Source: Croceimicrobium hydrocarbonivorans (GTDB lineage Bacteria; Bacteroidota; Bacteroidia; Flavobacteriales; Schleiferiaceae). Taken from it: a stretch of 64,000 nt of DNA. This document shows, in pieces, positions 17,159 through 56,257 of this stretch. The notes below the pieces were generated by a model that was not told the DNA's origin, searched no databases, and worked only from the letters and a program-made list of their open reading frames with translations. The stretch lies in NCBI RefSeq assembly GCF_014524565.1, contig NZ_CP060139.1, positions 1,805,501-1,869,500 on the forward strand, read 5' to 3'. The stretch's first letter is position 1; the number at the start of each line of letters is the position of its first letter. A program made the translations under genes and the position numbers.

Positions 17159-20063
17159 ATCTATCCTTTTCGCTCCCTTAATTCTTGCCCTTGCTTGTTC
17201 TGGTCCGGAGCCAGAGACTATTAATTCCAAAAACTGGGCCGAATTAGTAAACCCTTTTATTGGGACCGGCGGACACGGCCACACCTATCCAGGTGTATCG
17301 GCACCCTTTGGTTTTATGCAGTTAAGTCCGGATACGCGTTTAAGTGGCTGGGATGGTTGTGGTGGTTACCATTACAGCGATTCGGTGATTTATGGCTTTT
17401 CGCATACCCACCTCAGCGGCACCGGAATTTCCGATTACGGGGATGTGTTAATCATGCCCTTTACCGGCGAAGGCCATTTTAACAATGGTTCTGAAAGCAG
17501 TCCGGATTCTGGCTATGCTTCCCGCTTTAATCATAGCAAGGAATCGGCCCATGCGGGATATTATCAAGTTGAGCTTCTAGACTACAATATTCAGGTAGAA
17601 CTAACTGCCAGTCAAAGAACGGGAATGCATCATTATCAATACCCAAAAAGCGCAAGCCAAGGCTTGGTAGTCGATTTGCAACATCGGGATCAACTGCTTG
17701 ATGCTCATTTAGAAATTATAGATCCTAGCCATATTCGCGGTTATCGTGTTTCCAAGGCTTGGGCTCAGGAACAACATCTCTATTTTTATCTGGAACTCTC
17801 CCAAGCCATTAAGGAGAGTCGTTATAATGAAGATAGCACCAAGCTCCTGCTTTACTTTGATAATCCAGAGGAACTCTATTTGAAAATTGGCAGTTCCGCG
17901 GTTTCAATGGAAGGCGCAGAAAGAAACCTGAAGAAAGAAATTCCTGCATGGGATTTTAAGGCACTTCGTCAAAACTGTGAGGCGGCCTGGAACAAAGAAT
18001 TGTCTAAAATCCAGGCCCAGTTCGAAAGCCCAGAAGACGAAAAGATCTTTTATACCGCCCTTTATCATTCTTATTTAAACCCCAATATCTTTCAAGATGT
18101 AGATGGGCAGTATCGAGGCACCGACCTTGAAGTACATCAAGACAGCAGTTTTACCAATTATTCGGTGTTCTCACTCTGGGATACTTATCGGGCCACCCAC
18201 CCCCTCTTTACCTTAACGCAGCAAAAACGTAGCCTCGATTTTATTAAGACCTTCTTACATCAATACCAAAACGGTGGTGAGCTACCCATGTGGGAATTAG
18301 CGGGAAATTATACCGGCTGTATGATTGGTTACCATGCTATTCCGGTAATCGTTGATGCCTATGCAAAGGGTATTCGCGACTTTGATACGGAGCTGGCCCT
18401 TAAAGCCATGATTGAAGAAGCTGAAAAGGATGAATTAGGCAAAGCTTATTACATCGCTCAAGGCTACATGGCTTCTAATGATGAGCATGAATCCGTATCC
18501 AAAAATCTGGAATATGCCTACAATGATTGGTGCATTGCCCAATTTGCCAAGGAACTGGGTAAGGATAGTATTTACCGTGTTTTTATTGAAAGAGCTCAGA
18601 ATTATCAGAACATCTTCGACCCTGAAACGGGCTTTATGCGAGCCAAGCGCAAGCAGATGTTTATGGAGCCCTTCGATCCGGCAGAAGTGAATTTCAACTT
18701 TACGGAAGCGAACTCCTGGCAGTACAGCTTTTATGTACCGCAAGACCTAAGTGGCTTAATCGCTTTACAAGGTGGTGCCGATGGTTTTAATGCCAAGCTA
18801 GAGGCCTTGTTTAATGCCCCTCAAGAAACCTCGGGCCGAGAGCAGGCCGATATAACCGGCCTTATTGGTCAGTATGCCCATGGCAATGAGCCTAGCCACC
18901 ACATGGCCTACCTTTATAATTATACCGGAGCTTCTGCCAAAACGCAGGCTATGGTGCGCAGGATTATGAAGGAGATGTACCACAATAGTCCGGATGGCTT
19001 AATTGGTAATGAAGACTGCGGACAAATGTCGTCTTGGTACGTTCTCTCTGCCTTGGGATTTTATCCGGTAACGCCTGGTAGCCCCGATTATATCATAGGA
19101 TCGCCACTGGTTAAAAACGCGAGTTTACAACTGGAAAACGGCCAGAGCTTCAAAATCCAAGTTGAAAACCAAGGGCCGAATAATGTCTATATCCAGGAAA
19201 TTCGTCTGAATGGAAATCCGTATACCCAGGCATGGATCAATCAAAAGACAATTCTTGATGGTGGTGAATTGACATTTGTGATGGGCCCAAAACCTGGTCC
19301 TGCTTTAGAAGCACCGGTTTCCGAAATCAAGGATGAGCTAATTAGTCCTGTACCTTTTATTAAGCAAGAAAGTGCTGAGTTTAGAGATAGCCTGGTACTA
19401 AGCCTGCATTGTGCAGATCCGGATGCTAAAATCTATTATTCCTTGCGCGGAAATCAGGTGGACACAAATTCCTCCCTCTATGAAAAGCCCATTGTTTTAA
19501 AAGACAACTCCATGTTGTATGCCATGGCAAAGGTCCCGGGTAAAAAGGCCAGTAAGCCGGCTGGAACGGTCTTCGTAAAATTGAAAACCAATCGGAAAAT
19601 AGAATTCAGCACTCCTACTGATCCTCAATATCCTGGCAGTGGATCTAATACTTTGCTGGATGGTATGGATGGCGGCAGCGATTTCCGCACCGGAGGCTGG
19701 CAAGGTTGGCAAGGACAGGATGTGGAATTGATTATCGACCTCGGACCGGAGGGCGAGCATATTTCACGCCTTAGCGCCAATCTTTTGCAGGATACTAAAT
19801 CCTGGATTTTCTTACCCAAGCAAGTGCGCTTTTACGCCGCTCAGTTTGATGATCAATTCGAATTCTTAGGAGCCGTGAAGCCGGAAACAGCGGATACAGC
19901 CAGCGGTACTCATATTGAAGATATTGAACTAAGCTTTAGTGGACGCCGAGCCCGAAAAGTGAAAATTGTAATTGAAAATTATGGCCCCTTGCCCGCCGGA
20001 CATATTAGCGCTGGCAAGGAAAGCTGGTTATTTGTAGATGAGGTGAAAATTCAGAAATTTTAG
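17148..20063 (+). CDS. GH92-family alpha-mannosidase, lipoprotein
   Basis: The chosen ATG at 17148 gives a lipoprotein signal (ILALAC, Cys17); the frame opens upstream at 17109, but that part overlaps the kinase. The catalytic region (~30-720) begins NPFIGTGGHGHTYPGVSAP and contains GFSHTHLSGTGISDYGD and GNEPSHHMAYLY, all typical of GH92 calcium-dependent exo-alpha-mannosidases. A chitobiase-C-type bridge follows (DPDAKIYYSLRGN), then a discoidin-like C-terminal domain (GGWQGWQGQDVELIIDLG) that is also found in the GH20 enzyme of this locus. It likely trims alpha-linked mannose from glycoproteins at the cell surface or in the periplasm. Its stop interlocks with that of the GH2 gene. Confidence 0.94.
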   Translation: MRSKSILFAPLILALACSGPEPETINSKNWAELVNPFIGTGGHGHTYPGVSAPFGFMQLSPDTRLSGWDGCGGYHYSDSVIYGFSHTHLSGTGISDYGDVLIMPFTGEGHFNNGSESSPDSGYASRFNHSKESAHAGYYQVELLDYNIQVELTASQRTGMHHYQYPKSASQGLVVDLQHRDQLLDAHLEIIDPSHIRGYRVSKAWAQEQHLYFYLELSQAIKESRYNEDSTKLLLYFDNPEELYLKIGSSAVSMEGAERNLKKEIPAWDFKALRQNCEAAWNKELSKIQAQFESPEDEKIFYTALYHSYLNPNIFQDVDGQYRGTDLEVHQDSSFTNYSVFSLWDTYRATHPLFTLTQQKRSLDFIKTFLHQYQNGGELPMWELAGNYTGCMIGYHAIPVIVDAYAKGIRDFDTELALKAMIEEAEKDELGKAYYIAQGYMASNDEHESVSKNLEYAYNDWCIAQFAKELGKDSIYRVFIERAQNYQNIFDPETGFMRAKRKQMFMEPFDPAEVNFNFTEANSWQYSFYVPQDLSGLIALQGGADGFNAKLEALFNAPQETSGREQADITGLIGQYAHGNEPSHHMAYLYNYTGASAKTQAMVRRIMKEMYHNSPDGLIGNEDCGQMSSWYVLSALGFYPVTPGSPDYIIGSPLVKNASLQLENGQSFKIQVENQGPNNVYIQEIRLNGNPYTQAWINQKTILDGGELTFVMGPKPGPALEAPVSEIKDELISPVPFIKQESAEFRDSLVLSLHCADPDAKIYYSLRGNQVDTNSSLYEKPIVLKDNSMLYAMAKVPGKKASKPAGTVFVKLKTNRKIEFSTPTDPQYPGSGSNTLLDGMDGGSDFRTGGWQGWQGQDVELIIDLGPEGEHISRLSANLLQDTKSWIFLPKQVRFYAAQFDDQFEFLGAVKPETADTASGTHIEDIELSFSGRRARKVKIVIENYGPLPAGHISAGKESWLFVDEVKIQKF

Positions 20064-22243
20064 ATTTCACTCGGAAATATCTCAATGTATTTCAGCTCCG
20101 CAGTTTTCATTAAGTCTCTGGATTCCGGGAGCTCTTTCAATGGCAATTGATAAGTACCCGGGCCTTTAAAATCCCTTTGTATAAGTGGACTTATCATAGG
20201 ACCCTCTTCGGGTTTAAAACGCAGTCGAATATCAAAATGCTGATCTTCTTCGATAGAGAAATAAATCACTCCGTCTTCCACATACCAGAAGGTCTGCCTA
20301 AAAGCATTTCGCAAGGCATCCAGACCCGGTTTTTCCCGACCATAATAATCGATCACACTCCAAGACGGTCCCGGCCAACAATCATTAAGTTGCCACATCA
20401 GTGAACCCATGCAAAAACCTCTTTGCATACGATGGGCCCGAGCTGCAGTTTGCAAGGCCTTAGACTGCACTGCCTGACTCTTCTCAATAAAGTCTTTGAA
20501 ATCCTTTGGCTCCCCGTAATACTGCAGTACCTGCTTGCGAATCTCTCCATTGCCGATATAGCTCTTCTGGCGGTTTTGCATGGCCTGCGACTCCAAATAC
20601 ATGTTAGAATCCGCAATTACCCTACGTAGGCTTTTGTAATCGGGGAATGACTGGAAGCCATACTCCACCATAAAGCGCCCCACGTTAGCATTGAACTGAT
20701 CGAAGCTTTCTCGGCCATGCCATACTCCCCAATAGTGCATACTGGCATGCTTAAAGTTTTCTGCGTTTCCCCAATTACTCAAAGGGCTGGTATGCACATA
20801 GGGTCGATCGTCCAATGCAGCCAAACTTTCTGGGATAAGCTGCTTAAAAAGGCTTTCATAGCCTCTGATCAATTGCAAAGAATCTTCTTTAGAATAGCCG
20901 AATTGCTTTTGCCAGCCCCAGTTTTTCCAGGCCACATCAATTTCATTATTTCCGCACCAAAGCACTATAGAAGGATGTTGGCGCAAGCGCTTCACATTGT
21001 CTTCTACCTCAGCCTTTACATTGCTTAAAAAGCCTGGTTGATCCGCAGGGTACATGGTTCCGGCAAACATAAAATCCTGCCATACCATGATTCCCAGACT
21101 ATCGCATTGATCATAAAACAGATCTTTCTCATAAAAGCCACCACCCCAAACCCGCAGCATATTCATATTAGCCGATGCTGCTTGATTTAAAAGTCGTCGA
21201 TAGCCCGCATCAGAAACCCTTGGCAAAAGCATATCCTGAGGCACATAATTAGCCCCTCTGGCAAAAATGGGCTTCCCGTTAATCTTGAAATAAAAAGAAG
21301 TGCCCAAACTATCCGGGGCATTTACCAATTCTACCTTTCGCAGGCCATAGTGAAAGGGAAACACATCAATGAGGCTATCCTCTCGAAATAGCCTTAGGGT
21401 GTCATAATACAGATGGGCCTCACCATAGCCACGCGGCCACCACAATTCAGCCTGATCAATCTTCTTGCGAAAAGCTAAAAAACTTTGAGAATCCATAGGA
21501 TCTCTCTCCGCCTCTATTCTTTGCCCTTGAAACTCTAGCCATAGATTCCCAGTTCCGTTTTCGATAGCATAGTCAAATTGCACAAAAGCAGCTGAATCCC
21601 TCTGGGCTAATAAAGTCGCCCGAACCTCCTGTATTCGAGTGTCCTTTGATTGCAAATAGACCTTGCGATAGATCCCACAGGTAACAATGCGCGGGGCCCA
21701 GTCCCAACCAAAATGATAGGCTGCCTTTCGGCTGAATGGACTCACTTTTAAATCGCCGGTCTCCGAGCCTGCTGGCAATGCCCGTGGATAGCTTTCCACC
21801 GTCTTTTTATGATATTGATAAGGCGAAATAAAGTCGACCCTCAAGCTATGTTCACCGGGTCTAAGTTCGCTTAAATCAAAAACCCAGCGTCGAAACATAT
21901 TATCACATTCCCCCAGCAGAGAATCATCTAGGTAAACCCGGGCATAGGTGTCTAGGCCTTCAAAAACCAAATTCTGTGGAGCCCCCTCTTTTAGGTTAAA
22001 GTGAGATTGGTACTGCCAATTTTCCTTTTCAATCCACTGATAGCGAAGCTCGTTGTTCTCGTAGTAAATGTTTTCAATCCGCTGCTCCCGCATCAAATCC
22101 TGATGCACCGTGCCTGGCACCTGAGCGGGAAGCCATTCACTTTCCCCCATTCGGCGGAATTGCCAGCCATCACTTAAAGGCATTTCTTGCGCATAAGTGA
22201 CCATGCTGATTAGGTAAAAGATAATGTAAGTGCTATGCCTCAT
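20060..22243 (-). CDS. GH2-family beta-mannosidase, exported
   Basis: I start at the ATG at 22243, giving a signal peptide (MRHSTYIIFYLISMVTYAQ); a start at 22276 adds 11 residues. Sugar-binding and immunoglobulin-like domains precede a TIM barrel. The acid/base Glu lies in WCGNNEID (about residue 434) and the nucleophile in VEYGFQSFP (about 527), as in beta-mannosidases of GH2. The family cleaves the beta-1,4-mannose at the base of N-glycans or from mannan fragments. It is placed tail-to-tail with the GH92 gene, with stops overlapping in TTAG. It suits the last mannose step in N-glycan breakdown. Confidence 0.93.
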   Translation of the reverse strand: MRHSTYIIFYLISMVTYAQEMPLSDGWQFRRMGESEWLPAQVPGTVHQDLMREQRIENIYYENNELRYQWIEKENWQYQSHFNLKEGAPQNLVFEGLDTYARVYLDDSLLGECDNMFRRWVFDLSELRPGEHSLRVDFISPYQYHKKTVESYPRALPAGSETGDLKVSPFSRKAAYHFGWDWAPRIVTCGIYRKVYLQSKDTRIQEVRATLLAQRDSAAFVQFDYAIENGTGNLWLEFQGQRIEAERDPMDSQSFLAFRKKIDQAELWWPRGYGEAHLYYDTLRLFREDSLIDVFPFHYGLRKVELVNAPDSLGTSFYFKINGKPIFARGANYVPQDMLLPRVSDAGYRRLLNQAASANMNMLRVWGGGFYEKDLFYDQCDSLGIMVWQDFMFAGTMYPADQPGFLSNVKAEVEDNVKRLRQHPSIVLWCGNNEIDVAWKNWGWQKQFGYSKEDSLQLIRGYESLFKQLIPESLAALDDRPYVHTSPLSNWGNAENFKHASMHYWGVWHGRESFDQFNANVGRFMVEYGFQSFPDYKSLRRVIADSNMYLESQAMQNRQKSYIGNGEIRKQVLQYYGEPKDFKDFIEKSQAVQSKALQTAARAHRMQRGFCMGSLMWQLNDCWPGPSWSVIDYYGREKPGLDALRNAFRQTFWYVEDGVIYFSIEEDQHFDIRLRFKPEEGPMISPLIQRDFKGPGTYQLPLKELPESRDLMKTAELKYIEIFPSEI

Positions 22244-22308
22244 TGAGTAAATGTAATGGATCACAGGATTAATCAACAGAACTATTTTCCACTTAAACCA
22301 CTATAGTC

Positions 22309-22360
22309 TGTAAACCAATAAGCTTACATTTTAAATTATTTGTAATCCTATTGGTTTACA
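22309..22360. promoter_or_regulatory. Inverted repeat, candidate operator of the HTH/Fic module
   Basis: TGTAAACCAATA (22309-22320) is the perfect reverse complement of TATTGGTTTACA (22349-22360), with 28 AT-rich bases between. Each arm shares the GTAAAC core with the palindrome at 22374-22391. It lies between the beta-mannosidase start and the HTH gene, so it could control either. Confidence 0.6.
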
Positions 22361-22373
22361 TTTTTATATTTTA

Positions 22374-22391
22374 GTAAACTAATTAGTTTAC
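22374..22391. promoter_or_regulatory. Perfect 18-bp palindrome, candidate autoregulatory operator
   Basis: GTAAACTAATTAGTTTAC is a perfect palindrome 20 bases before the HTH protein start. With the two arms at 22309 and 22349 it gives four GTAAAC half-sites in a promoter-sized region, as expected of an antitoxin-type HTH repressor that binds its own promoter. Confidence 0.7.
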
Positions 22392-22411
22392 CAAACATCA
22401 AGAATATAGTC

Positions 22412-22873
22412 ATGAGAAGCGCTAAAAAACTTCAACTTGAACAATTAGAGAAAAAGCTCAAACCCTTTGCTAAGGCGCAAGAAGGACAAATTCCAGAAGC
22501 GGGTTGGATTAAAGCAATCCGAAGTGGTTTAAACATGACTATGGCTCAACTGGGTGTTAAACTCAATATTACTCGACAAGGAGTAAAAAAATTGGAAGAT
22601 AACGAGGCCAATGGTAGTATTAGTCTAAATTCTCTTCGGCAAACAGCTGAGGCTTTAGAGTTTAAGCTTGTATACGCTTTAGTGCCTAAAGATGGCTCTA
22701 TCCAAAACTTAATAAATCAAAAAGCGGAAGAATTGGCTCGCAAAATTGTTTTGCGAACCCACCAGAGTATGAAGCTCGAAAACCAAGCTATTGCCGAGAA
22801 AAAAATCAAACTTGCTATCAGTGAACTTTCCGAAGAATTAAAACGCGATTTAAACAAATCTTTATGGGATTAA
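22412..22873 (+). CDS. HTH protein, 'mobile mystery protein A' type
   Basis: 153 residues. A Xre/Cro-type helix-turn-helix at about 40-90 (MTMAQLGVKLNITRQGVKKLE) lies behind a helical N-terminus with QIPEAGWIKAIRSGLNMTM, which matches the family called mobile mystery protein A. The family is always paired with a Fic-domain protein, as here, overlapping by 10 bases. It probably represses the pair and may act as antitoxin. The gene is AT-richer than its neighbours, consistent with transfer. The pairing is known; the molecular function remains undescribed in the literature I recall. Confidence 0.85.
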   Translation: MRSAKKLQLEQLEKKLKPFAKAQEGQIPEAGWIKAIRSGLNMTMAQLGVKLNITRQGVKKLEDNEANGSISLNSLRQTAEALEFKLVYALVPKDGSIQNLINQKAEELARKIVLRTHQSMKLENQAIAEKKIKLAISELSEELKRDLNKSLWD

Positions 22874-23460
22874 ACCTCAGTTATTCACCCGGACAAACCC
22901 CCATAAATGAAGAAGAAAAAGATGGATTAAGGATCAACACCATTGTGACTCAAGCCGAATTGGATGAGTTTGAGCAATTGAATATTGAAAAGGCGATTGC
23001 CTGGACTATTCAACAGAAATTCACAGTCGAAAAAATTTTAAGTGCAATTTTCATCAAAAACCTCCATAAAAGAATGTTCGGAGATGTTTGGAAATGGGCT
23101 GGTAGTTTTCGCAATTCAGAGAAAAATCTAGGCGTTACCTGGACACAAATAAACATCGAACTGCATAAGCTGCTCGACGATACTAAATTCTGGATTACAG
23201 AAAAGTCCTACCCTCCTGAAGAAATTGCCATACGGTTTAAACATAGGTTGGTTAGTATTCATTGCTTCCCCAACGGAAATGGTAGACATTCCCGACTAAT
23301 GGCGGACCTTGTCTTGGAAGCACTAACTAATCAAAATGCTTTTAACTGGAGTCAGAACCAAATGAGCCAAGCAAACAATACTCGTAAAAAATACATTGCC
23401 GCCTTGAAAACTGCTGATCAGGGTAGCATAAACGACCTTCTTCAATTTGCTAAAGAATAG
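22864..23460 (+). CDS. Fic-domain protein, 'mobile mystery protein B' type
   Basis: 198 residues. The Fic active-site motif is H133-CFPNGNGR-HSR (canonical HPFxxGNGRxxR, with the Pro replaced by Cys), with the flap region upstream. The N-terminus (SPGQTPINEEEKDGL) resembles the conserved start of mobile mystery B proteins. Fic enzymes transfer AMP or other nucleotide parts from a cofactor to target proteins, so this could be a toxin or a regulator. The His, Asn and Arg residues needed for catalysis are all present. The target is unknown. It lies 9 bases before the end of cutC on the opposite strand. Confidence 0.88.
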   Translation: MGLNLSYSPGQTPINEEEKDGLRINTIVTQAELDEFEQLNIEKAIAWTIQQKFTVEKILSAIFIKNLHKRMFGDVWKWAGSFRNSEKNLGVTWTQINIELHKLLDDTKFWITEKSYPPEEIAIRFKHRLVSIHCFPNGNGRHSRLMADLVLEALTNQNAFNWSQNQMSQANNTRKKYIAALKTADQGSINDLLQFAKE

Positions 23461-23469
23461 CTTTGAACT

Positions 23470-24162
23470 CTACTTAAAAGCCAAAATCCCCTTTACCTTC
23501 TCCTCATCCGAAATTAAGCGAGCACCCATTCCCAGTGGCACATCTGCCTCAAAAGCACCCACGGTAAAATGCACGGCATCCAAAGTAGAGGCTTTAAATG
23601 CTGGCATCGCGGAAGCCATTAGCCCACTGCCCGCCATAATCTCAATACGATCTTGAGCGGCTTCTTTCAAGCGAACCAAAAGATCTAAACCCTCAATTGC
23701 CTTGGCTTGCTGACCGGAACTTAGCAGGCGCACAAAGCCCCATTCAATAATGGATTCCAAAGCCGCAAAGGGATCCGGGGTAAAATCAAAAGCGCGGTGG
23801 CAAACACTTTCTAAGCCTTGTTCTTTAGCCACAGCTATTAAGCCTTGATTGGCTTCGGCATTTAAGCTTCCATCCGGATTGGAAACCCCAAAAACCACCC
23901 CTTGAATTCCAGTTTGAGCTAATTCCACAATTTCCATTTTCATCAGCTCCAGCTCCTTAGCACTGTAAACAAATCCTCCCGCTACCGGGCGAATCATGGC
24001 AAAGACTTTTTGTTGAGATTCCTGCACTACCTGCCGGCAAAGGGCCGTACCCGGACTAAGTCCTCCTTCATGTAATGCCGAACAAAGCTCTACCCGATCG
24101 GCACCGTATTTATCCGCCAAAAGCGCACCTTCCAAAGATTCTATACAAGCTTCAAATTCCAT
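23470..24162 (-). CDS. cutC: CutC-family TIM-barrel protein
   Basis: 230 residues. MEFEACIESLEGALLADKYG followed by ADRVELCSALHEGGLSPG is the CutC signature, and FAMIRPVAGGFVYS and VCHRAFDFTPDP match conserved barrel segments. CutC is annotated as 'copper homeostasis' from E. coli genetics, but a metal role has been doubted. Here the start codon overlaps the GH20 stop (TAATG), so it is translationally coupled to a hexosaminidase rather than to copper genes. A role in sugar or amino-sugar metabolism is therefore my inference, with copper handling the alternative. Confidence 0.9.
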   Translation of the reverse strand: MEFEACIESLEGALLADKYGADRVELCSALHEGGLSPGTALCRQVVQESQQKVFAMIRPVAGGFVYSAKELELMKMEIVELAQTGIQGVVFGVSNPDGSLNAEANQGLIAVAKEQGLESVCHRAFDFTPDPFAALESIIEWGFVRLLSSGQQAKAIEGLDLLVRLKEAAQDRIEIMAGSGLMASAMPAFKASTLDAVHFTVGAFEADVPLGMGARLISDEEKVKGILAFK

Positions 24163-26399
24163 TATTGCACGATAATTTCATCCATAAATAACCAGGCCTC
24201 TGCTCCTGCCGCTTCATGCCAGTCCGGCACTCGACCTTGCGACTCAACCACCAACTTTATAAAGCGAGTCTGGGTTTTGCTTTTTACTTCCAAATGCTCA
24301 ATATGCTGCCCTCTTTGCTTGGCTTGAATTTGGGCTTGGCTTTCGCCGATAAGTCTCCAGCTCTTTCCATCTTGAGAGGCATAAACTTTATAGCTCCGTG
24401 GCACAAATATCCAGGCATTGTTGTAGTGGTAAAAATTAGAGCTTACCGAATTAATCTCTTTCAATTCACCTAAATCCAGCCACAGCTCAATATCCTGCCC
24501 CGAAAAGCCCTGCCATTGGCCATCCCTAAAGTTTAGGGAGCCCAAGCGGCCATTCACCAAAGCCGCTGCTCCCCCTCCGGTATACCATTGCGAATATTCG
24601 GATTGATACTGCGGTTTTCGCGCTAAGGCCTTATGGAATTCAAATTCCTGCTCTATGGTATCTCCATAGGGCTGTTCATTTTTTAAGGCCTGTACTTTTA
24701 AGGTTCCGGATTCCTTTAAAACAAAGCCCCAGGGTCCCTTCTTTTCATTCCAATAAACCTCTTGATCAATAGCCTCAAAATTGGTCTTAGAGCCAATAAA
24801 TACCTCAGCGCTATCGAAATTCACATCGGCATAGATTTCGGCGGGAATCATCTCCGGGCCATAAGCTACCCCTAAGGATTCCAGCATAGGGTAATGCTTT
24901 TGCATCCTTTGAAAGAAGTCCCTAAAATCTCTTTTCTGCGGATAGGTCCATAATACCTCTGCTAGGGCCTGCATGCGCGGATTCACTTTAGAGTCTAAAT
25001 TGGCCTCATTGGGTACATGCTCCGTCCACATATTGCATTCACCACCAATAATAAATTTCTGCTCCTGTTCACTTAATTCAGCCGGAATGGGATCAAAACT
25101 GTAGACCTTCTTCAAATCAATTTGATGCAAGCCATAGTCGAGATAACAATGACTAGTGGGCGACATAATGGCCTGATGCTGAGAGCGCGCGGCAGCAATT
25201 CCCCCTTCCATTCCACGCCAACTTTGGACTGTGGCATTAGGAGAAAGCCCTCCTTCTAGTATCTCATCCCAACCAATCAGTTTGCGTCCCTTGCTGTTTA
25301 AATAGCTTTCGATACGCTTTATAAAGTAACTCTGCAGTTCGTGTTCATTAGCGAGGCCTTCATCCGCCATACGCTTTTGGCATTTGGCACAATGCTCCCA
25401 GCGAAATTTAGGCGCTTCATCGCCCCCAATGTGGATGTACTCGGATGGGAAAATCTCCATCAATTCTTCCAAAATGCTTTCTAGAAACAAAAAGCTAGAG
25501 TCGTTTCCAGCACAGTAAATCTCTTTGAATACCCCCCAATCATTAGCTACTTCAATATTCGCATCTGCCCCCAGGCAAGAGAATTGAGGGTAGGCTGATA
25601 AAGCAGCCTGCGAATGCCCGGGTAATTCCAATTCAGGGATAATGGTGATATGACGTGCTTCGGCAAAAGCCACCAATTCCCTTAAATCTTGCTTGCTGAA
25701 ATAGCCCCCATATCTAGAGCCATCTTCTTCCCTCCGATAAGCGGCCTCTTGATGTAATTTGGGAAAGGCCTCACTTTCAAAGCGCCAGCCCTGATCTTCG
25801 GTAAGATGTAAATGCAAGACATTCATTTTGTACAGGGCTAGCAGATCGATGTACTTCTTTACTACATCCTTATCAAAATAATGCCGACATACATCCAATA
25901 AAAGACCTCGGTGTTTAAAGCGAGGAGCGTCGGCAATGTATAAAGTGGGTAAAGCCCATGCTTCTCTTTTGTCGGCATCATGAAAAGCATCGACCATTAA
26001 CTGTCGCAGGCTTTGGATAGCCCGCATGAGTCCGGCCTTTGTTTTGCCTTTCAATACAATTTTAGCGGCTTCAATTTCAAGCGTATAGGCCTCTTCAGGA
26101 CCTTCCATTTCGTCGGAAATCACTAATTGTACCTCCCCTTTGGAAGCATGAATTTCAGGTTCAAAAGTGCTATGCTGCTTGATTAGGTCCTGTAAATACT
26201 GCGCCTCTGCCAAACAATTGGAATCAGCTTGAATGCGGGTTTTTGCTTTCCAAATAAAGGCGGCCCCAGATCGGCTTTCGAAATGCTGAACCTTTGGAAT
26301 TAAGTATTGATCTGCATCCGCACGATATTCCGGAACGGCGTCTTCATCCGAACAAGCGGCAAAGGCAATTGCTAGAATAAGTAAAAAGGCCTTTTTCAT
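24162..26399 (-). CDS. GH20 beta-N-acetylhexosaminidase, lipoprotein
   Basis: 745 residues. A lipobox (AFAAC, Cys16) predicts membrane anchoring. A GH20b N-terminal domain (~30-150) is followed by the catalytic barrel (~160-500) with the D327-E328 pair in HIGGDEAPK that runs substrate-assisted catalysis. A chitobiase-C-type domain (~540-600) and a discoidin-like C-terminal domain (GQWQGFSGQDIELWLDLG) follow; the latter resembles the end of the GH92 enzyme. The enzyme removes terminal beta-GlcNAc or GalNAc from glycans. It is transcribed ahead of cutC. Confidence 0.95.
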   Translation of the reverse strand: MKKAFLLILAIAFAACSDEDAVPEYRADADQYLIPKVQHFESRSGAAFIWKAKTRIQADSNCLAEAQYLQDLIKQHSTFEPEIHASKGEVQLVISDEMEGPEEAYTLEIEAAKIVLKGKTKAGLMRAIQSLRQLMVDAFHDADKREAWALPTLYIADAPRFKHRGLLLDVCRHYFDKDVVKKYIDLLALYKMNVLHLHLTEDQGWRFESEAFPKLHQEAAYRREEDGSRYGGYFSKQDLRELVAFAEARHITIIPELELPGHSQAALSAYPQFSCLGADANIEVANDWGVFKEIYCAGNDSSFLFLESILEELMEIFPSEYIHIGGDEAPKFRWEHCAKCQKRMADEGLANEHELQSYFIKRIESYLNSKGRKLIGWDEILEGGLSPNATVQSWRGMEGGIAAARSQHQAIMSPTSHCYLDYGLHQIDLKKVYSFDPIPAELSEQEQKFIIGGECNMWTEHVPNEANLDSKVNPRMQALAEVLWTYPQKRDFRDFFQRMQKHYPMLESLGVAYGPEMIPAEIYADVNFDSAEVFIGSKTNFEAIDQEVYWNEKKGPWGFVLKESGTLKVQALKNEQPYGDTIEQEFEFHKALARKPQYQSEYSQWYTGGGAAALVNGRLGSLNFRDGQWQGFSGQDIELWLDLGELKEINSVSSNFYHYNNAWIFVPRSYKVYASQDGKSWRLIGESQAQIQAKQRGQHIEHLEVKSKTQTRFIKLVVESQGRVPDWHEAAGAEAWLFMDEIIVQ

Positions 26400-26457
26400 A
26401 GGGCCTGAAATTACGTGATTTAGAACAAGAGTTTACCGCTTGGTTTATCCATGAACA

Positions 26458-26946
26458 TTAGCTAATGCCGTGGTTAACATAGAACATATTATAACCAAAC
26501 AGGAAATAATAGTAATCCAAGACTAATACAACAAGGCCAACTCCTAAAATGATAGGTTTCTTACTTATAAACTCTCTAAGTAAAAAAAGGCTTCCCACAA
26601 CCAGTACAATCACCATTAAAATCGTGTTTAATAGGAAATAACTAGTGTTTAAGTTTTTAATATCTGCACAATATTGTCCATAAAGTTGCCCCGCTGAAAA
26701 CAGAAAATAAGTAGTAAAAAGCAAAAAGAATAGGTTATACGAAAATGATCCCGTTTGTTTCCTTAACATCACCAATGGAATTAGTAAAAGCAAGGAGATT
26801 AAAGGAGCACTCGAATAGTATAATATTGGTAGTGAGTTAAAAAAGTGGCTATTAAAGATTATAAAATCCTGAGTAAACCAATAAATAAACTCAACTACTA
26901 ATAATATAGCGAGTAATTTGATTAATTCGACAAAGCTAGATTTCAA
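26458..26946 (-). CDS. Hypothetical four-span membrane protein
   Basis: 162 residues with only a TTG start available (26946); no ATG is in frame upstream. Four hydrophobic helices (LLAILLVVEFIYWF, LISLLLLIPLVML, LFFLLFTTYFLFSAG, TILMVIVLVVGSLFLL), plus a possible fifth (LGVGLVVLVLDYYYFLF), make up most of the protein. It is clearly AT-richer than its neighbours. No family is recognised. Together with the gene-poor stretch upstream it may be an acquired or degrading segment. It is tail-on to GH20's start but 59 bases away on the same strand, so it would precede GH20 in a shared transcript. Confidence 0.55.
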   Translation of the reverse strand: MKSSFVELIKLLAILLVVEFIYWFTQDFIIFNSHFFNSLPILYYSSAPLISLLLLIPLVMLRKQTGSFSYNLFFLLFTTYFLFSAGQLYGQYCADIKNLNTSYFLLNTILMVIVLVVGSLFLLREFISKKPIILGVGLVVLVLDYYYFLFGYNMFYVNHGIS

Positions 26947-27196
26947 TATAACTAATTGTTTAGTAGTTTGTAAATTCTTGAAACACTTTGACCTTCATAC
27001 TTTTTAAATCATCAATAAGATCGTTTATTAATGATTGATAAGTATTGTTTGTGCTATTTATTGAAGATAGTTGCAAAATTTTAATAAAGGAATGATAATC
27101 CGCAGAAGTCCTCGAGATACGAGTTTGTAAATTACTCCCTTGTCAGGATTGCAGGCCTCCTTCTACAGGAGTTTCTGAATTATTTAGGAAAAATAC

Positions 27197-32452: not shown

Positions 32453-33355
32453 ATGGTTTTTTTAGCCGGAATCATCCTGCTCTCCTTGGCCTCCTGTAAA
32501 AGTGGGGCTCCGGTTCAAAATACCGCTTATGTGGAACCCTATCTTAGGGATAGCATTCCCTACAGCTTGGCTAATCATGAGGAAGTTTCGGAGCGATTAC
32601 TCATCTTTCTACCCCCAGCTTTAGACACCGTTCAATTTGAAAAAACGGAACTCTATCAAGACATTTTTAATGCAGGATATGATATCCTCTGCATCTATCA
32701 ACCTCCGGCAACTGGCGCTTTCTTCTACAGCCGAAAAGCCATGGAATTTAAAGGCCAACAAATTCAAAATGCTCAAAATTTAATTAGCCATCTCCGAAAG
32801 GAAAAGAAAATTGCGGGAGCAGAACACAGTATTCTTATGGGCATCGAGCAAGGAGGCTATATGATTCCCTCTTTAATGGCCAATAATCATATTGATACCG
32901 CCATTTATATTACGGCCAGTCCCTTTAGTATGTATATGTCTTTGCAAAGAATTGCCGAAGGTCGCATGGAATGGAATAAAGCGCGGCAAAATTTTGTGAA
33001 GGATAAATTTGGGATCGACTCCCTGCGGGTTTTTAAACAAAAAGTTGAGGATGTAGAAAACCTGAGCTCTGAACTCTATAGTTTAGGTTCCTATACCAAT
33101 ATGTACTGGCTAAGCTATCATGCCAATTATATGATGGAAGAATACCGCTTAAGCCCCGGTCATCATTATTGGATCTTCTACGATGATTATCCTTTGTATA
33201 AATCCAGCGACTTTGACTATCTGAAGCTATTGGATAAAACCAAAGCCAATTCCAGTGCGGCCTATAAAGTATTAAGCGGTTACCAATCTTTTAGTGAAGA
33301 AAACTGGGAACAATTAGAAGAGGTAATTCTCCCTTATTTTAAGGAGCAATCTTAG
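32453..33355 (+). CDS. Lipoprotein with degenerate alpha/beta-hydrolase-like fold
   Basis: 300 residues from the ATG at 32453, which gives a lipobox signal (LLSLASC); the frame opens at 32396 and would bury that signal. The body reads like an alpha/beta hydrolase: LLIFLPPALD (strand), then FNAGYDILCIYQPP, then the nucleophile elbow SILMGIEQGGYMIPSLM where GxSxGG would be expected. The Ser is replaced by Glu, so it is probably not an ordinary serine esterase. The C-terminus has aromatic-rich loops (PGHHYWIFYDDYPLY). The function is unknown. It overlaps the rpiB 3' end by 17 bases. Confidence 0.75.
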   Translation: MVFLAGIILLSLASCKSGAPVQNTAYVEPYLRDSIPYSLANHEEVSERLLIFLPPALDTVQFEKTELYQDIFNAGYDILCIYQPPATGAFFYSRKAMEFKGQQIQNAQNLISHLRKEKKIAGAEHSILMGIEQGGYMIPSLMANNHIDTAIYITASPFSMYMSLQRIAEGRMEWNKARQNFVKDKFGIDSLRVFKQKVEDVENLSSELYSLGSYTNMYWLSYHANYMMEEYRLSPGHHYWIFYDDYPLYKSSDFDYLKLLDKTKANSSAAYKVLSGYQSFSEENWEQLEEVILPYFKEQS

Positions 33356-33767
33356 CTACGCGACGCTCATGACGACCGCCTTCAAAGCTGGCATTTAAGA
33401 AAGCATCAGTAATGGCTAAACCTTCTTCCATAGAAACGAAACGGGCGGGTAGGGCCAGGATATTCGCATTGTTATGTTGACGAGCCAAGGATGCCAATTC
33501 TTCGTTCCAGGCCAGGGCAGAACGGATACCGGCGTACTTATTAACAGTCATATTAATACCATTACCACTGCCGCAAATCACAATACCCAAATCTGCATCT
33601 CCATTAAGGACTTCCTTTGCTACCGGATGACCAAAGTCTGGATAGTCCACAGAATCAGTAGAATCGGTTCCAAAATTGTGCAGCTCGTGTCCGGCAGACT
33701 CCAATTTGTTAATAATAGCGGCTTTCAATTCTACTGCGGCGTGATCTCCTCCGATGGCAATTTTCAT
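33339..33767 (-). CDS. rpiB: Ribose-5-phosphate isomerase B
   Basis: 142 residues from the ATG at 33767 (MKIAIGGDHAAVELK); the open frame upstream is not conserved-looking. The catalytic cysteine is C65 in VICGSGNGINM, and the phosphate-binding residues lie in GGDHAA and LPARFVS. It converts ribose 5-phosphate and ribulose 5-phosphate in the pentose phosphate pathway. It lies directly beside the largest intergenic gap of the window. Confidence 0.94.
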   Translation of the reverse strand: MKIAIGGDHAAVELKAAIINKLESAGHELHNFGTDSTDSVDYPDFGHPVAKEVLNGDADLGIVICGSGNGINMTVNKYAGIRSALAWNEELASLARQHNNANILALPARFVSMEEGLAITDAFLNASFEGGRHERRVAKIAP

Positions 33768-34220
33768 GAGTGGGTAATTTTTAATAAGTCTGTAAAGTTT
33801 TCGTTTACAAAGCTTTACTATTAACAACTAAGAAATAATAATCAGGGTGGATTGTTTATTTCTTCTTAAAAATAGTGCTTGACTTTTTCAATTCCAGCTT
33901 TGTATAGGCAAATATCCGATTTTAAGGTCTCAGCTTATTCTTTTTTACCACAACAATTTTCACCAGCTGAGTCGAGTTTATTAACCGCGCAGCGGCCAAA
34001 ATTTTTTTAAATCTGCTCCGTGAATTAGGCTTATCAACAATTGTGAATAGCGATAGCTTTAAGCTGGTAAATGAAGCATTTATGCTGTAAGTTAGCCTTG
34101 ATTTGTTGTGAATAAGATTTGATAGCTCAAGAAAGCAAGGCTTCCTTCTGAAATTTATACCGTCTATTCACAGCACATTATTATCATCATAAGATTTAGA
34201 TTTTAAAAAAGACTATATAT
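33768..34220. other. Largest intergenic region, with DnaA-box cluster (candidate oriC)
   Basis: 453 bases without a gene. It contains four DnaA-box-like nonamers at 34031-34039 (TTATCAACA), 34042-34050 (CTATTCACA, minus strand), 34107-34115 (TTATTCACA, minus strand, perfect match to TTATNCACA) and 34164-34172 (CTATTCACA, plus strand). The first two form an inverted pair two bases apart. An AT-rich stretch follows up to 34220 (TTTAAAAAAGACTATATATA). By eye the strand bias in G versus C changes here. The combination fits a replication origin, though dnaA is not in the window and no unwinding element has been proven. Confidence 0.45.
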
Positions 34221-35798
34221 ATGTTATTAAGAACCTTGGCTTTAATCCTGATAGCGGTGATTCCCCTATCTTCGTTTTCGCAAACAGCCGGGGATAGTCT
34301 CAAGCCCACCCGCTACTACTACGAGAATGGGCAAGTAAGCAGTGAGGGGAGCTTACGCAATGGTAAACCCGATGCCTATTGGAAGAGCTATTATCGAAAT
34401 GGGGTTCTTAAAGCTGAAGGCAATCGCCAAAATTTTGAACTGGATGGACCTTGGATCTTTTACGATCGAGAGGGGATAAGAACCTCGGAAATCAATTATA
34501 AATCTGGTAAAAAGAACGGTCCCAGTAAGCTCTACAAGGAAGGCAAACTTCTGAAAATAGATCAGTTTAAAGACGATGTTCAGGAAGGTATCACCCGGTT
34601 TTTCTATCCAGATAGTTCACTACAAAAGGAAGTGCCTTATGTGGAAGGGAAAATGGAGGGTATGGGATATGAATATGCCCAGGATGGTAGAGTAATCACT
34701 TTATTAACATTTAAGAATGGAGCCCTCATCCGCAAGCAGAATATCAATCGTTTTGATCAGCAAGAGCAAAAGCAAGGCATGTGGATGGAGTTTCATGCGA
34801 ATAAGGGCATTGCCGTAGAAGGGCCTTATCTCAATGATCTGAAAAATGGCTATTGGAAATATTATAAATCCAATGGCAATTTGATTCGGGTTGAAAAGTG
34901 GATTAATGGCGAGCTGCAGGAAGGAGCAACTGAAGTGGCTAAGCTGGAGATTAAGCGAGAGATTGATCCAAAAACCGGAGCGGTAATTTTTAGAGGAGCC
35001 TATCAGAATGGAAAAGCAACCGGGGTGCATCGCGAATACAATTCGGAGGGTGAGATTATCGCTGCCCGGGTTTATGATCAGGGTAATAAACTATTTGAAG
35101 GATTAATCGATGAACAAGGTCGAAAGCAAGGCCCTTGGAAAAGCTTTTATGAAGATGGTAGCCTCAAGGCAGAAGGTTCGTATAAAGATGATTTGAAGGT
35201 AGGTTCCTGGCGTTATTTCTTTAGAGATGGTAAGCTGGAACAACAAGGAAATTACGTGGCGGGCAAAGCCAATGGATTATGGGAATGGTATTTCCAAAAT
35301 GGTCAACTTTTACGTGAAGAAGAATATGCCTTTGGTTTTGAAGATGGAATGTCTACCGAATACAATGATACCGGAGCAGTTATAGCCCAGGGATCCTATG
35401 TAGATGGTATGAAAGAAGGACAATGGGTACTAACCATCAATGATCACAAGGAAGTGGGACCTTATTTTGAAGGTCTTCGCAATGGATTGTGGAAGCATTA
35501 TTACCTGAATAAAGATCAATTAAGTTTTGAAGGAAGCTTCGAAAATGGATTAGAATCCGGAACCCATACCTATTATTATCCCAATGGACAGATACAACGA
35601 AGAGGAGATTATGCGGGAGGTGTTCGACAAGGTATTTGGGAGTTCTTTACAGAGAATGGAGACCGAATTGTAACCATCGAGTACCAGGATGGAGTAGAAG
35701 TGCGCTACAATGGCGAGAAAATCGATTATGGTCGACGCTATGAGCGTGCAGTCGCAGAAGAAAAAGCCCGTAAAAGTCTTTCGGAAGAAGCAGAATAA
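34221..35798 (+). CDS. Exported MORN-type repeat protein (YwqK-like repeats)
   Basis: 525 residues. The signal peptide is MLLRTLALILIAVIPLSSFSQ. Nearly the whole mature part is built of ~22-residue repeats of the form YYENGQVSSEGSLRNGKPDG-W, i.e. the MORN-variant repeat also called toxin-antitoxin YwqK antitoxin repeat. At least 14 copies are visible (YYRNGVLKAEG, FYEDGSLKAEGSYKDD, YYPNGQIQRRGDY). Such repeats form a beta-rod. Despite the family name nothing here indicates an antitoxin; the protein is probably a periplasmic or outer-membrane-associated structural or binding protein. It is followed by a NUDIX gene after 26 bases. Confidence 0.88.
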   Translation: MLLRTLALILIAVIPLSSFSQTAGDSLKPTRYYYENGQVSSEGSLRNGKPDAYWKSYYRNGVLKAEGNRQNFELDGPWIFYDREGIRTSEINYKSGKKNGPSKLYKEGKLLKIDQFKDDVQEGITRFFYPDSSLQKEVPYVEGKMEGMGYEYAQDGRVITLLTFKNGALIRKQNINRFDQQEQKQGMWMEFHANKGIAVEGPYLNDLKNGYWKYYKSNGNLIRVEKWINGELQEGATEVAKLEIKREIDPKTGAVIFRGAYQNGKATGVHREYNSEGEIIAARVYDQGNKLFEGLIDEQGRKQGPWKSFYEDGSLKAEGSYKDDLKVGSWRYFFRDGKLEQQGNYVAGKANGLWEWYFQNGQLLREEEYAFGFEDGMSTEYNDTGAVIAQGSYVDGMKEGQWVLTINDHKEVGPYFEGLRNGLWKHYYLNKDQLSFEGSFENGLESGTHTYYYPNGQIQRRGDYAGGVRQGIWEFFTENGDRIVTIEYQDGVEVRYNGEKIDYGRRYERAVAEEKARKSLSEEAE

Positions 35799-53449: not shown

Positions 53450-53472
53450 TTGGAATTCAGATTCTTTAAAAC

Positions 53473-53486
53473 GTTTCACGTGAAAC
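53473..53486. promoter_or_regulatory. parS centromere-like site 1 (ParB binding)
   Basis: Perfect 14-bp core GTTTCACGTGAAAC, the ParB/Spo0J recognition palindrome (consensus TGTTTCACGTGAAACA, here flanked by C and T). It lies four bases before the mnmG ATG. Confidence 0.88.
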
Positions 53487-53490
53487 TGTT

Positions 53491-55362
53491 ATGATCAATA
53501 AGAAGTACGATGTTATTGTAGTTGGAGGAGGCCATGCTGGTGCGGAAGCTGCGGCAGCTAGTGCTAATATGGGTGCGGAGACCTTATTGGTTACGATGAA
53601 CCTACAGACTATTGGCCAGATGTCTTGTAATCCTGCTATGGGAGGCATTGCCAAGGGTCAGATTGTGAGAGAAATTGATGCTTTGGGTGGTTTATCAGGA
53701 ATTATTAGTGATAAAACCGCTATTCAATTCCGAATGCTTAATCGTTCTAAAGGTCCTGCAATGTGGTCTCCACGGGTTCAAAGTGATCGTTGGCGTTTTG
53801 CGGAGGAATGGCGTTTGTCTTTGGAAGCCATTCCATCATTGCATTTCTTCCAAGATATGGTCGTGGACTTGATCGTGGAAGGAGAGCAGGTTAAGGGTGT
53901 GAAGACTGGTATGGGAGTTGAAATTTTTGGCTCCAAAGTCATTCTTACCAATGGTACCTTCTTAAATGGATTGATTCATATTGGCGACAAGAATTATGGT
54001 GGTGGTAGAGCCGGCGAGCGTGCATCCACTGGTATTACAGAGAGATTAATCCAACTTGGTTTTGAGTCTGGTCGAATGAAAACGGGTACCCCTCCCAGAG
54101 TGGATGGACGTTCTTTGGATTATTCCAAGATGGAAGAACAAAGAGGTGATGAAATTCCCGAGAAATTCTCTTTTAGTTCTGAAACAAAGTCTTTAAAAGA
54201 ACAAAGAAGCTGTTATATCACCTATACGAGTCCTGAAGTACATGATACCTTAAAGGAAGGTTTTGATCGTTCTCCGATGTTTAATGGTGCTATTCAAAGT
54301 ACCGGTCCGCGTTATTGTCCTTCCATTGAAGATAAGATCAATCGCTTTGCGGATAAGGACCGTCATCAGATCTTCGTTGAGCCGGAAGGTTGGAACACGG
54401 TGGAGATCTATGTAAATGGCTTTAGTACTAGTTTACCTCAAGAGGTACAAGAAAAGGCTTTGCGTAAGGTAGTGGGCTTTGAAAATGTGCGGATATTTCG
54501 TCCAGGCTATGCAATAGAGTATGATTATTTTCCACCTACTCAGTTGAAACATACATTAGAGACTAAATTGGTTAGGGGGCTTTATTTTGCCGGTCAAATT
54601 AATGGTACTACCGGCTATGAAGAGGCTGCTAGTCAGGGTTTAATGGCAGGTATTAATGCTGTTTTAGCTTTGAAGGAGGAAGAGCCTTTAGTTTTAAGTC
54701 GTGATCAAGCTTATATCGGTGTTTTAATCGATGATTTAATTACCAAAGGCACAGAGGAGCCATATCGGATGTTTACCAGTCGTGCAGAGTATCGAATTCT
54801 TTTACGACAGGATAATGCAGATGAGCGATTAAGTCCTTTAGGTAATTCCATTGGATTATTACCTGATAGTCGAATCGAGGAGTTTCACGTGAAACAATCT
54901 AAAACAAAAGCTTTACAAGATTGGGTTTCTTCTTATAGTATCAGTCAAGCTGAAGCTAATCCTATATTAGAATCTAAGGGTTTAAGTCCTTTAAAACAGA
55001 CTATGAAATTTGAGAAGGTTATTGCACGCCCTCAGTTGCAGTTTTCAGATTTTGAAGGTTTAGTGGCTTTTAAAGCTGTTGTAGATAAAGAATCCTTGCA
55101 AAAGGAGAATATTGAAAGAGTGGAGATCGAAACTAAGTATGCTGGTTATTTAGAAAAAGAAAAAGAAGCCGCAGCAAAGATTGATCGTTTGGAAGATTTA
55201 AAGATTCCTGAGGCTTTTGATTATTATAAGCTCAAATCTTTGTCCTACGAAGCTCGTGAGAAGTTAACGGAGATGAAGCCTACCAGTATAAAGGAGGCGA
55301 AGAAGATAAGTGGGGTAAGTCCTGCAGATATTAGTGTATTATTGGTCTATATGGGCCGTTAG
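53491..55362 (+). CDS. mnmG: tRNA U34 carboxymethylaminomethyl-modification enzyme MnmG
   Basis: 623 residues. FAD-binding VVGGGHAGAEAAAASANMG at the N-terminus, CNPAMGGIAKGQIVREIDALGG, and the C-terminal FARPQL-type region (VIARPQLQFSDFEGL) are typical of MnmG (GidA). With MnmE it modifies U34 in several tRNAs. Sites flanking and inside the gene are parS, one of which (54882) is read as coding sequence EEFHVKQS. Confidence 0.97.
   Translation: MINKKYDVIVVGGGHAGAEAAAASANMGAETLLVTMNLQTIGQMSCNPAMGGIAKGQIVREIDALGGLSGIISDKTAIQFRMLNRSKGPAMWSPRVQSDRWRFAEEWRLSLEAIPSLHFFQDMVVDLIVEGEQVKGVKTGMGVEIFGSKVILTNGTFLNGLIHIGDKNYGGGRAGERASTGITERLIQLGFESGRMKTGTPPRVDGRSLDYSKMEEQRGDEIPEKFSFSSETKSLKEQRSCYITYTSPEVHDTLKEGFDRSPMFNGAIQSTGPRYCPSIEDKINRFADKDRHQIFVEPEGWNTVEIYVNGFSTSLPQEVQEKALRKVVGFENVRIFRPGYAIEYDYFPPTQLKHTLETKLVRGLYFAGQINGTTGYEEAASQGLMAGINAVLALKEEEPLVLSRDQAYIGVLIDDLITKGTEEPYRMFTSRAEYRILLRQDNADERLSPLGNSIGLLPDSRIEEFHVKQSKTKALQDWVSSYSISQAEANPILESKGLSPLKQTMKFEKVIARPQLQFSDFEGLVAFKAVVDKESLQKENIERVEIETKYAGYLEKEKEAAAKIDRLEDLKIPEAFDYYKLKSLSYEAREKLTEMKPTSIKEAKKISGVSPADISVLLVYMGR
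54882..54895. promoter_or_regulatory. parS site 2, inside mnmG
   Basis: Perfect GTTTCACGTGAAAC core flanked by A on the left and A on the right (15 of 16 consensus bases), within the mnmG coding sequence (codons for FHVKQ). It lies 1409 bases from site 1. Confidence 0.88.
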
Positions 55363-55375
55363 TTTCACGTGAAAC
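55362..55375. promoter_or_regulatory. parS site 3, between mnmG and the methyltransferase gene
   Basis: Perfect GTTTCACGTGAAAC core flanked by A/A. It includes the last base of the mnmG stop codon and ends at the base before the next start codon, so it fills the whole gap. It lies 480 bases from site 2. Confidence 0.88.
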
Positions 55376-56257
55376 ATGAAAGAACATTCCTCTTGCCCAG
55401 TATGTGGCGCTAAAAATTTAGAGTCGGTACGAAAGCCTTATTATTACAGGGGTACCAAAGAAACCTTCAATGTTGATGCCTGCAAATCTTGTGGCTTTTG
55501 GCTAACCAATCCTGCCCCTGAGGGTGCAGAATTGGCTGCATATTATGAGAGCGATGATTATGTGAGTCATACTGATGGTACCGGATCATTGATGGATAAG
55601 GTATACGGAGCTGTACGTAAGCGAGCTATAAAATCAAAATTTGATTTGGTAGCTTCCTTGGCAGCACCGTCTAAAGTTCTTATTGACTATGGTGCTGGTA
55701 CTGGTGAATTCTTAGCCTATGCCAAGACTAAGAATTGGACAGTTAAGGGTTTTGAACCCTCTGAAGTTGCGCGGGAGAATGCTGCACGTAAGGGATTGGA
55801 ATTATTATCTCCGGAAGAACGCTGGACCTTGGAAGAGGAGTCGGTAGGGGTGTTTACGCTTTGGCATGTCTTAGAACATATACCAGACTTAAATGAAACG
55901 CTTGCGTATTTCTATACTCGCTTGGTTAAAGGGGGCTGCTTAGTTATCGCAGTTCCTAACCATGAATCTTTAGATGCAGATAATTATGGTGATGATTGGG
56001 CTGCCTATGATGTTCCTTTACACCTTTGGCATTTTGCAAAATCTGATTTACAAAGATTAGCGCAGAAGCATCATTTCCAATTGGAGAAAATTGAGAATAT
56101 GCCTTTTGATAGTTTCTATGTTTCACTTTTAAGTGAGAAGAATAGACATGGTGCGATGCGCCCGATACAGGCTTTTTATCAGGGATTACGTTCTAATTTA
56201 GCCGGTTCTAAGGCTAAGAATATGAGTAGCTTAATTTATGTGCTACGTAAGGACTAA
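55376..56257 (+). CDS. Class I SAM-dependent methyltransferase with zinc-ribbon-like N-terminus
   Basis: 293 residues. The N-terminus has a C-x2-C and C-x2-C pair (CPVCGAKNL, DACKSCGFWL), a small zinc module, followed by the motif I of SAM enzymes LIDYGAGTGEFL (about residues 98-110) and LWHVLEHIPDLNE. This resembles the methyltransferase-domain proteins of surface-glycan and quinone pathways; the acceptor is unknown. The start follows the parS site directly; it is probably co-transcribed with mnmG. Confidence 0.88.
   Translation: MKEHSSCPVCGAKNLESVRKPYYYRGTKETFNVDACKSCGFWLTNPAPEGAELAAYYESDDYVSHTDGTGSLMDKVYGAVRKRAIKSKFDLVASLAAPSKVLIDYGAGTGEFLAYAKTKNWTVKGFEPSEVARENAARKGLELLSPEERWTLEEESVGVFTLWHVLEHIPDLNETLAYFYTRLVKGGCLVIAVPNHESLDADNYGDDWAAYDVPLHLWHFAKSDLQRLAQKHHFQLEKIENMPFDSFYVSLLSEKNRHGAMRPIQAFYQGLRSNLAGSKAKNMSSLIYVLRKD

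Follow-up and report, generated by a model that had tools for sequence, protein, structure and literature searches.

A predicted replication origin beside rpiB and remote from dnaA in Croceimicrobium hydrocarbonivorans

The 453-bp intergenic region between rpiB and a MORN-repeat protein gene in Croceimicrobium hydrocarbonivorans (33768..34220) is very probably the chromosomal replication origin, oriC. Coordinates are those of the window, the whole stretch of 64,000 bp that was analysed (C1:1805501-1869500), which lies on a single contig, C1, of 4,035,598 bp. Our computation revealed a GC-skew switch, DnaA boxes, a triplet tract, low duplex stability, parS-like sites and conservation among relatives. 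Four traits of an oriC are found together at the gap: a skew minimum, a box cluster beyond chance expectation, an easily unwound AT-rich element and a conserved place in relatives, including footprints in seven genomes of the same genus. The origin is of an ordinary kind in an unusual setting, beside rpiB, about 20 kb from a parS-mnmG locus and nearly opposite dnaA. A preliminary description had proposed the gap as oriC or part of it, and the skew minimum together with a box cluster unmatched in the sampled part of the genome supports this proposal.

Position of the gap on the chromosome

The gap has an AT content of 68%. On one side it is flanked by rpiB (33339..33767, minus strand), which encodes ribose-5-phosphate isomerase B (Pfam LacAB_rpiB, 3.7e-55) and is the flanking gene that marks oriC in relatives through its linkage. 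On the other, unwinding side is the gene for a MORN_2-repeat protein (34221..35798, plus strand). No RNA genes and no terminators were found at the gap. It had been called the longest gene-free stretch of the window. The length of 453 bp is correct; the rank holds only if a 162-aa ORF at 26458-26946 is a gene, as the stretch 26400-27196 would otherwise be longer.

The cumulative GC skew reaches its minimum at 34,322, about 100 bp past the gap and close to the 34 kb predicted earlier. This minimum was located in a contiguous 150 kb (1,770,000-1,919,999), and the rest of the chromosome was covered by sampled stretches of 5.6-20 kb. The sampled skew is negative over 0-1.80 Mb, with one weak exception at 150-170 kb (+0.011), and positive over 1.87-3.99 Mb, again with one weak exception at 3.93-3.95 Mb (-0.010). 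The cumulative maximum is found at 3,983,075, in a contiguous 226 kb that begins at 3.93 Mb, crosses the start of the record and ends at 0.12 Mb. The arms between minimum and maximum measure about 2.14 and 1.89 Mb. In the sampled stretches, the best matches to the dif sites of E. coli and B. subtilis carry 8-9 mismatches of 28, are scattered and do not fall at the skew maximum, so the terminus was placed by skew alone.

The preliminary description correctly reported dnaA as absent from the window. The gene is located at C1:540, which is 1,838,721 bp from rpiB, or 45.6% of the circle. The distance to the skew maximum is about 53 kb, which puts the gene on the terminus side of the chromosome, away from the origin. 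Adjacency to dnaA, a common but non-obligatory trait of oriC, is therefore absent here. An origin at dnaA was considered and rejected, as the skew stays negative around the gene and the skew maximum is only about 53 kb away. The position of dnaA also disagreed with the skew plot in excerpts of PMC11278836, a paper in which one figure legend swaps oriC and ter relative to the excerpted text.

DnaA boxes and the unwinding region

The gap contains four DnaA boxes within 142 bp, at the positions described previously, one exact and three with a single mismatch. Two of them form an inverted pair with 2 bases between the halves (34031-34050). Its left half is TTATCAACA (34031..34039, plus strand, 1 mismatch) and its right half is CTATTCACA (34042..34050, minus strand, 1 mismatch). 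The third box, TTATTCACA (34107..34115, minus strand), matches TTATNCACA exactly, and the last is another copy of CTATTCACA (34164..34172, plus strand). Two weaker box-like sites on the plus strand have 2 mismatches each. The first, CTATTAACA (33818..33826), retains its ATTAACA core in all seven genus members; the second, TTATTAACC (33978..33986), is kept in six of the seven.

Could such a cluster arise by chance in an AT-rich gap? One-mismatch boxes are frequent (0.89 per kb) and are not enriched across the window, where 61 matches were seen and 60.4 were expected from shuffles, so clustering is the only unusual feature. However, none of 4000 dinucleotide shuffles of the gap placed four boxes in 142 bp, and only seven contained at least four boxes anywhere. 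The positions and cores of the boxes are also kept across the seven genus members, in which much else has diverged; the inverted-pair core AACAATTGTGAATAG and the box at 34107 are degenerate in two of them (G005 and G006). A chance cluster is scarcely conceivable in view of these results. No second 142-bp stretch with four boxes was found in the sampled 21% of the genome (855,598 bp). A stronger cluster elsewhere, which would have counted against the gap, was likewise not found in this 21% when it was scanned for one-mismatch clusters. Exact boxes number 103 genome-wide, and among the 100 positions listed the two nearest each other are 249 bp apart. This competing pair, at C1:2762571-2762828, was rejected; it has no cluster around it and lies in DNA of positive skew.

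The gap could be aligned in all seven genus members and consists of conserved islands amid diverged DNA. The islands are the inverted-pair core, the box at 34107, the two weaker sites that begin at 33818 and 33978, the block that follows the last box and AAATGAAGCATTTA (34069..34082, plus strand). The last of these is not a DnaA box. Its first 8 bases are kept in seven of seven genus members and all 14 in five of seven. This genus-conserved sequence lies inside the putative oriC. As a motif of origins across the order it was rejected: 21 of 128 rpiB upstream regions contain AAATGAAG, at one shared offset in the seven genus members and scattered in the 14 others. The scatter outside the genus indicates that the AAATGAAGCATTTA element is conserved only within the genus.

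The sequence that follows the boxes resembles a Basal Unwinding System (BUS). The order is TTATACCGT-CTATTCACA-GCAC-ATT-ATT-ATC-ATC-ATA. TTATACCGT (34155..34163, plus strand) is a weak box in tandem with the last box. The spacer GCAC (34173..34176, plus strand) separates the tandem from a DnaA-trio-like tract of five NTN triplets, which read 3'-NAN-5' on the other strand (34177..34191, plus strand). The BUS rule, as excerpted from PMC8287927, allows up to 2 mismatches to TTATCCACA in the box and up to 4 in its partner, permits a spacer of 0-16 bp and requires at least three 3'-NAN-5' triplets. Counted by hand, CTATTCACA has 2 and TTATACCGT 4 mismatches to TTATCCACA; the spacer measures 4 bp and the triplets number five.

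The AT-rich stretch noted earlier beyond the last box was confirmed and is an extreme one. By nearest-neighbour energies, 34177..34222 is the least stable run of 45 base steps in the 64-kb window and a candidate DNA unwinding element; it starts exactly at the first triplet base. Only three sites at least this unstable, the element itself included, were found in the 855,598 bp sampled. The other two, both near 3.31 Mb, are slightly less stable than the element.

Comparison with relatives shows which parts of this block are kept. In the seven-genome alignment, the tract with an A at every third base is conserved across the genus; the counterpart of the block in G002 is ACAGCCTATTATTACTACTATAGATT. 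Similar triplet tracts are found in two members of other genera (L028 and L072), and a TTATACC-like run before the last box recurs in relatives. A box-plus-triplet score of 4, exactly the value of the window itself, was reached by 48% of 128 rpiB upstream regions, compared with 16% of 640 shuffles. This enrichment is modest, and the rule by itself is not very specific. AT-rich DNA often has NTN triplets following a box, which makes the triplet criterion weak when taken alone. The scan covered 128 of 131 upstream regions; L040 was dropped as a second entry for the genome of L084, and L090 and L094 for having fewer than 350 upstream bases. It took the best hit per sequence on either strand, and many picks differ from the aligned BUS, such as TTAATAACA sites where the far-side gene begins. 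A few duplicates are also included (the L072 and L107 hits are identical). In view of the misplaced picks and duplicates, we used only the comparison with shuffles.

The rpiB, mnmG and dnaA loci in related genomes

We compared 80-120 kb around rpiB in eleven single-contig genomes of the same genus, family and order. Except for G048, they were picked from the order-wide matches listed as single-contig genomes with both places visible, and G295 was left out. A best or tied-best box cluster lies within 1 kb upstream of rpiB in nine of the eleven. It is the sole best cluster in five (G003, G048, G053, G258 and G068) and tied for best in four (G009, G038, G266 and G303). In G038, at least 4 other places tie with the rpiB cluster, with 3 boxes each. 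The skew minimum is at most 0.75 kb upstream of rpiB in five genomes (G003, G009, G038, G258 and G068); it is displaced by 5 kb in G266 and by 13-19 kb in G048, G053 and G303. Together, the sequences suggest that the rpiB-origin layout appears common to most of the related genomes tested.

Two relatives depart from it. In G046 the 900 bp upstream of rpiB contain no box, G311 has no cluster at rpiB among its six best, and neither parS nor mnmG was found in the stretch around rpiB in either genome. The linkage of rpiB and the origin seems to be broken in both. Near rpiB the skew of G311 turns from slightly negative to positive, so its origin may be close by.

The gene on the far side of the gap is less constant. 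Among ten relatives tested (G046 was excluded), a match to the MORN-repeat gene adjoins the region in G003, G009 and G048, versus none in the seven others. This distribution bears on the reading that the boxes are DnaA-regulated promoter or titration sites for the divergent rpiB and MORN-repeat genes, with a coincidental skew switch. DnaA also binds promoters. The gap is also a promoter region for divergent genes and contains 5 promoter-like matches, compared to a shuffle mean of 2.2 (sd 1.5). However, box clusters upstream of rpiB are kept in six genomes in which no far-side MORN match was found (G053, G038, G068, G258, G266 and G303). In C. hydrocarbonivorans the skew minimum, the lowest duplex stability, the triplet tract and the proximity of parS all converge at the gap. 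A purely regulatory role in expression of the two genes is highly improbable given this convergence, and we continue to read the gap as oriC.

Three parS-like sites are located about 20 kb from the gap, at mnmG (gidA; 53491..55362, plus strand; Pfam GIDA, 1.9e-162). The first, CGTTTCACGTGAAACT, is just before the gene (53472..53487). AGTTTCACGTGAAACA occurs twice, inside the gene (54881..54896) and at its end (55361..55376). Genome-wide, TGTTTCACGTGAAACA has four matches with at most 2 mismatches, three of them being these sites; the pattern read backwards, as a control, has one. A location of parS near oriC is usual, according to excerpts of PMC7022226, though not obligatory, and it is observed here. 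In relatives mnmG marks the parS locus. parS-like sites are close to mnmG in nine of the eleven complete genomes, and parS and mnmG lie 3-45 kb from rpiB in the same nine that have a best or tied-best cluster there, and only in those; the parS sites are at 3-43 kb, and mnmG ends no more than 45 kb away. A 1065-aa ORF near mnmG (49843-53040) has no Pfam match and a GC skew of up to 0.31. Its relatives, mostly partial matches, are found near mnmG in seven of the eleven genomes.

The clustering of these sites raises the alternative that replication in fact starts at mnmG, about 20 kb from the gap, and that DnaA binds the gap in a regulatory role only. Ori-Finder named mnmG or the adjoining region as oriC for two Flavobacteriaceae, with agreeing skew, in the excerpted parts of PMC12843772 and PMC11278836. 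In addition, the skew in our window climbs strongly from 50 kb. However, intergenic DNA beside mnmG is scant (53450-53490 and 55363-55375), and no box cluster was found there. The cumulative skew has already risen to about -1220 at C1:1,855,000, compared to -1456 at the minimum beside the gap. The two loci are well separated in G009, where mnmG is 43 kb from rpiB and the skew minimum is nonetheless 627 bp from rpiB, which counts against mnmG as the origin. We consider an origin at mnmG very unlikely on this evidence, and favor the gap beside rpiB.

The distance between dnaA and the rpiB origin was compared in ten of the twelve genomes, C. hydrocarbonivorans included; G046 (6.3%) and G311 (29.4%) were left out as genomes without an rpiB origin. 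In all ten, between 21.0 and 48.1% of the chromosome separates dnaA from the origin. The mean is 38.6%, compared with 25 under a uniform spread (KS p 0.017, uncorrected for kinship). That dnaA is kept far from the rpiB origin is suggestive only.

Proposed mechanism and relation to known origins

Binding of DnaA, unwinding, helicase loading and segregation are predicted here by analogy to models from other bacteria. DnaA, encoded almost half a circle away, would occupy the inverted pair, the box at 34107 and the tandem boxes at 34155-34172. Starting from this tandem, it would extend across the 4-bp spacer onto one strand, along the triplets at 34177-34191. DnaA on the triplets could then open the least stable DNA of the region, and the helicase would be loaded there. 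Two forks would then travel to the terminus region near 3.98 Mb, and the parS sites, located about 20 kb from the gap, may act as a centromere for the newly made origins.

Compared to the BUS origins of the B. subtilis type in the excerpted text of PMC8287927, the gap shares a box pair, a short spacer, triplets, adjoining AT-rich DNA and further boxes. Unlike them, it is located away from dnaA, between rpiB and the MORN-repeat gene, and its triplets are ATY, the classical TTA/CTA being found in some sister species. Similar to the mnmG origins of Flavobacteriaceae, as far as excerpts of PMC11278836 and PMC12843772 describe them, mnmG shares the chromosomal domain of oriC. In contrast to those Ori-Finder origins, mnmG here and in the relatives carries the parS-like sites, the boxes are at rpiB, 3-45 kb away, and the skew minimum is at rpiB in five of the eleven relatives. 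The parS-like palindromes, with the core GTTTCACGTGAAAC, are clustered near the origin as in the origin-proximal ParABS centromeres of the excerpted PMC7022226. They differ in their position, at and within mnmG and some 20 kb away from the boxes; the analysis of this system covered its palindromes.

It is conceivable, if doubtful, that the order has largely fixed a split layout, with oriC and its BUS at rpiB, parS at mnmG 3-45 kb away and a distant, late-copied dnaA. If so, late copying of dnaA would make its dosage time initiation in the opposite sense to the usual origin-linked dnaA. As a natural case of an initiator gene near the terminus, this chromosome would be useful for relating the position of dnaA to replication timing. 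The layout also offers a simple, testable rule for finding origins in the order, which would be sought upstream of rpiB and near a parS-mnmG locus. Genome records whose first base is set at dnaA, or in which mnmG is annotated as oriC, would need re-centring, with consequences for read-depth estimates of growth rate and for work on strand bias.

In the titles and the opening parts of abstracts of open-licence papers, we found no description of oriC at rpiB with parS at mnmG. Origins at rpiB may already have been predicted in the Ori-Finder lineage table of indicator genes or in DoriC. No open-licence paper was found that mentions the DnaA-trio together with Flavobacteri.

Two further observations concern the order and the window. 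A DnaA match is absent in 26 of 293 genomes of the order. Among the matches listed, which cover 20 of these 26, all genomes are 0.3-0.6 Mb in size and belong to one family. These small genomes are presumably those of reduced insect symbionts, and they may start replication without DnaA. Within the window, genes for GH92, GH2-like and GH20 glycoside hydrolases are located close together at 17109-26399, an arrangement that resembles a glycan-use locus.
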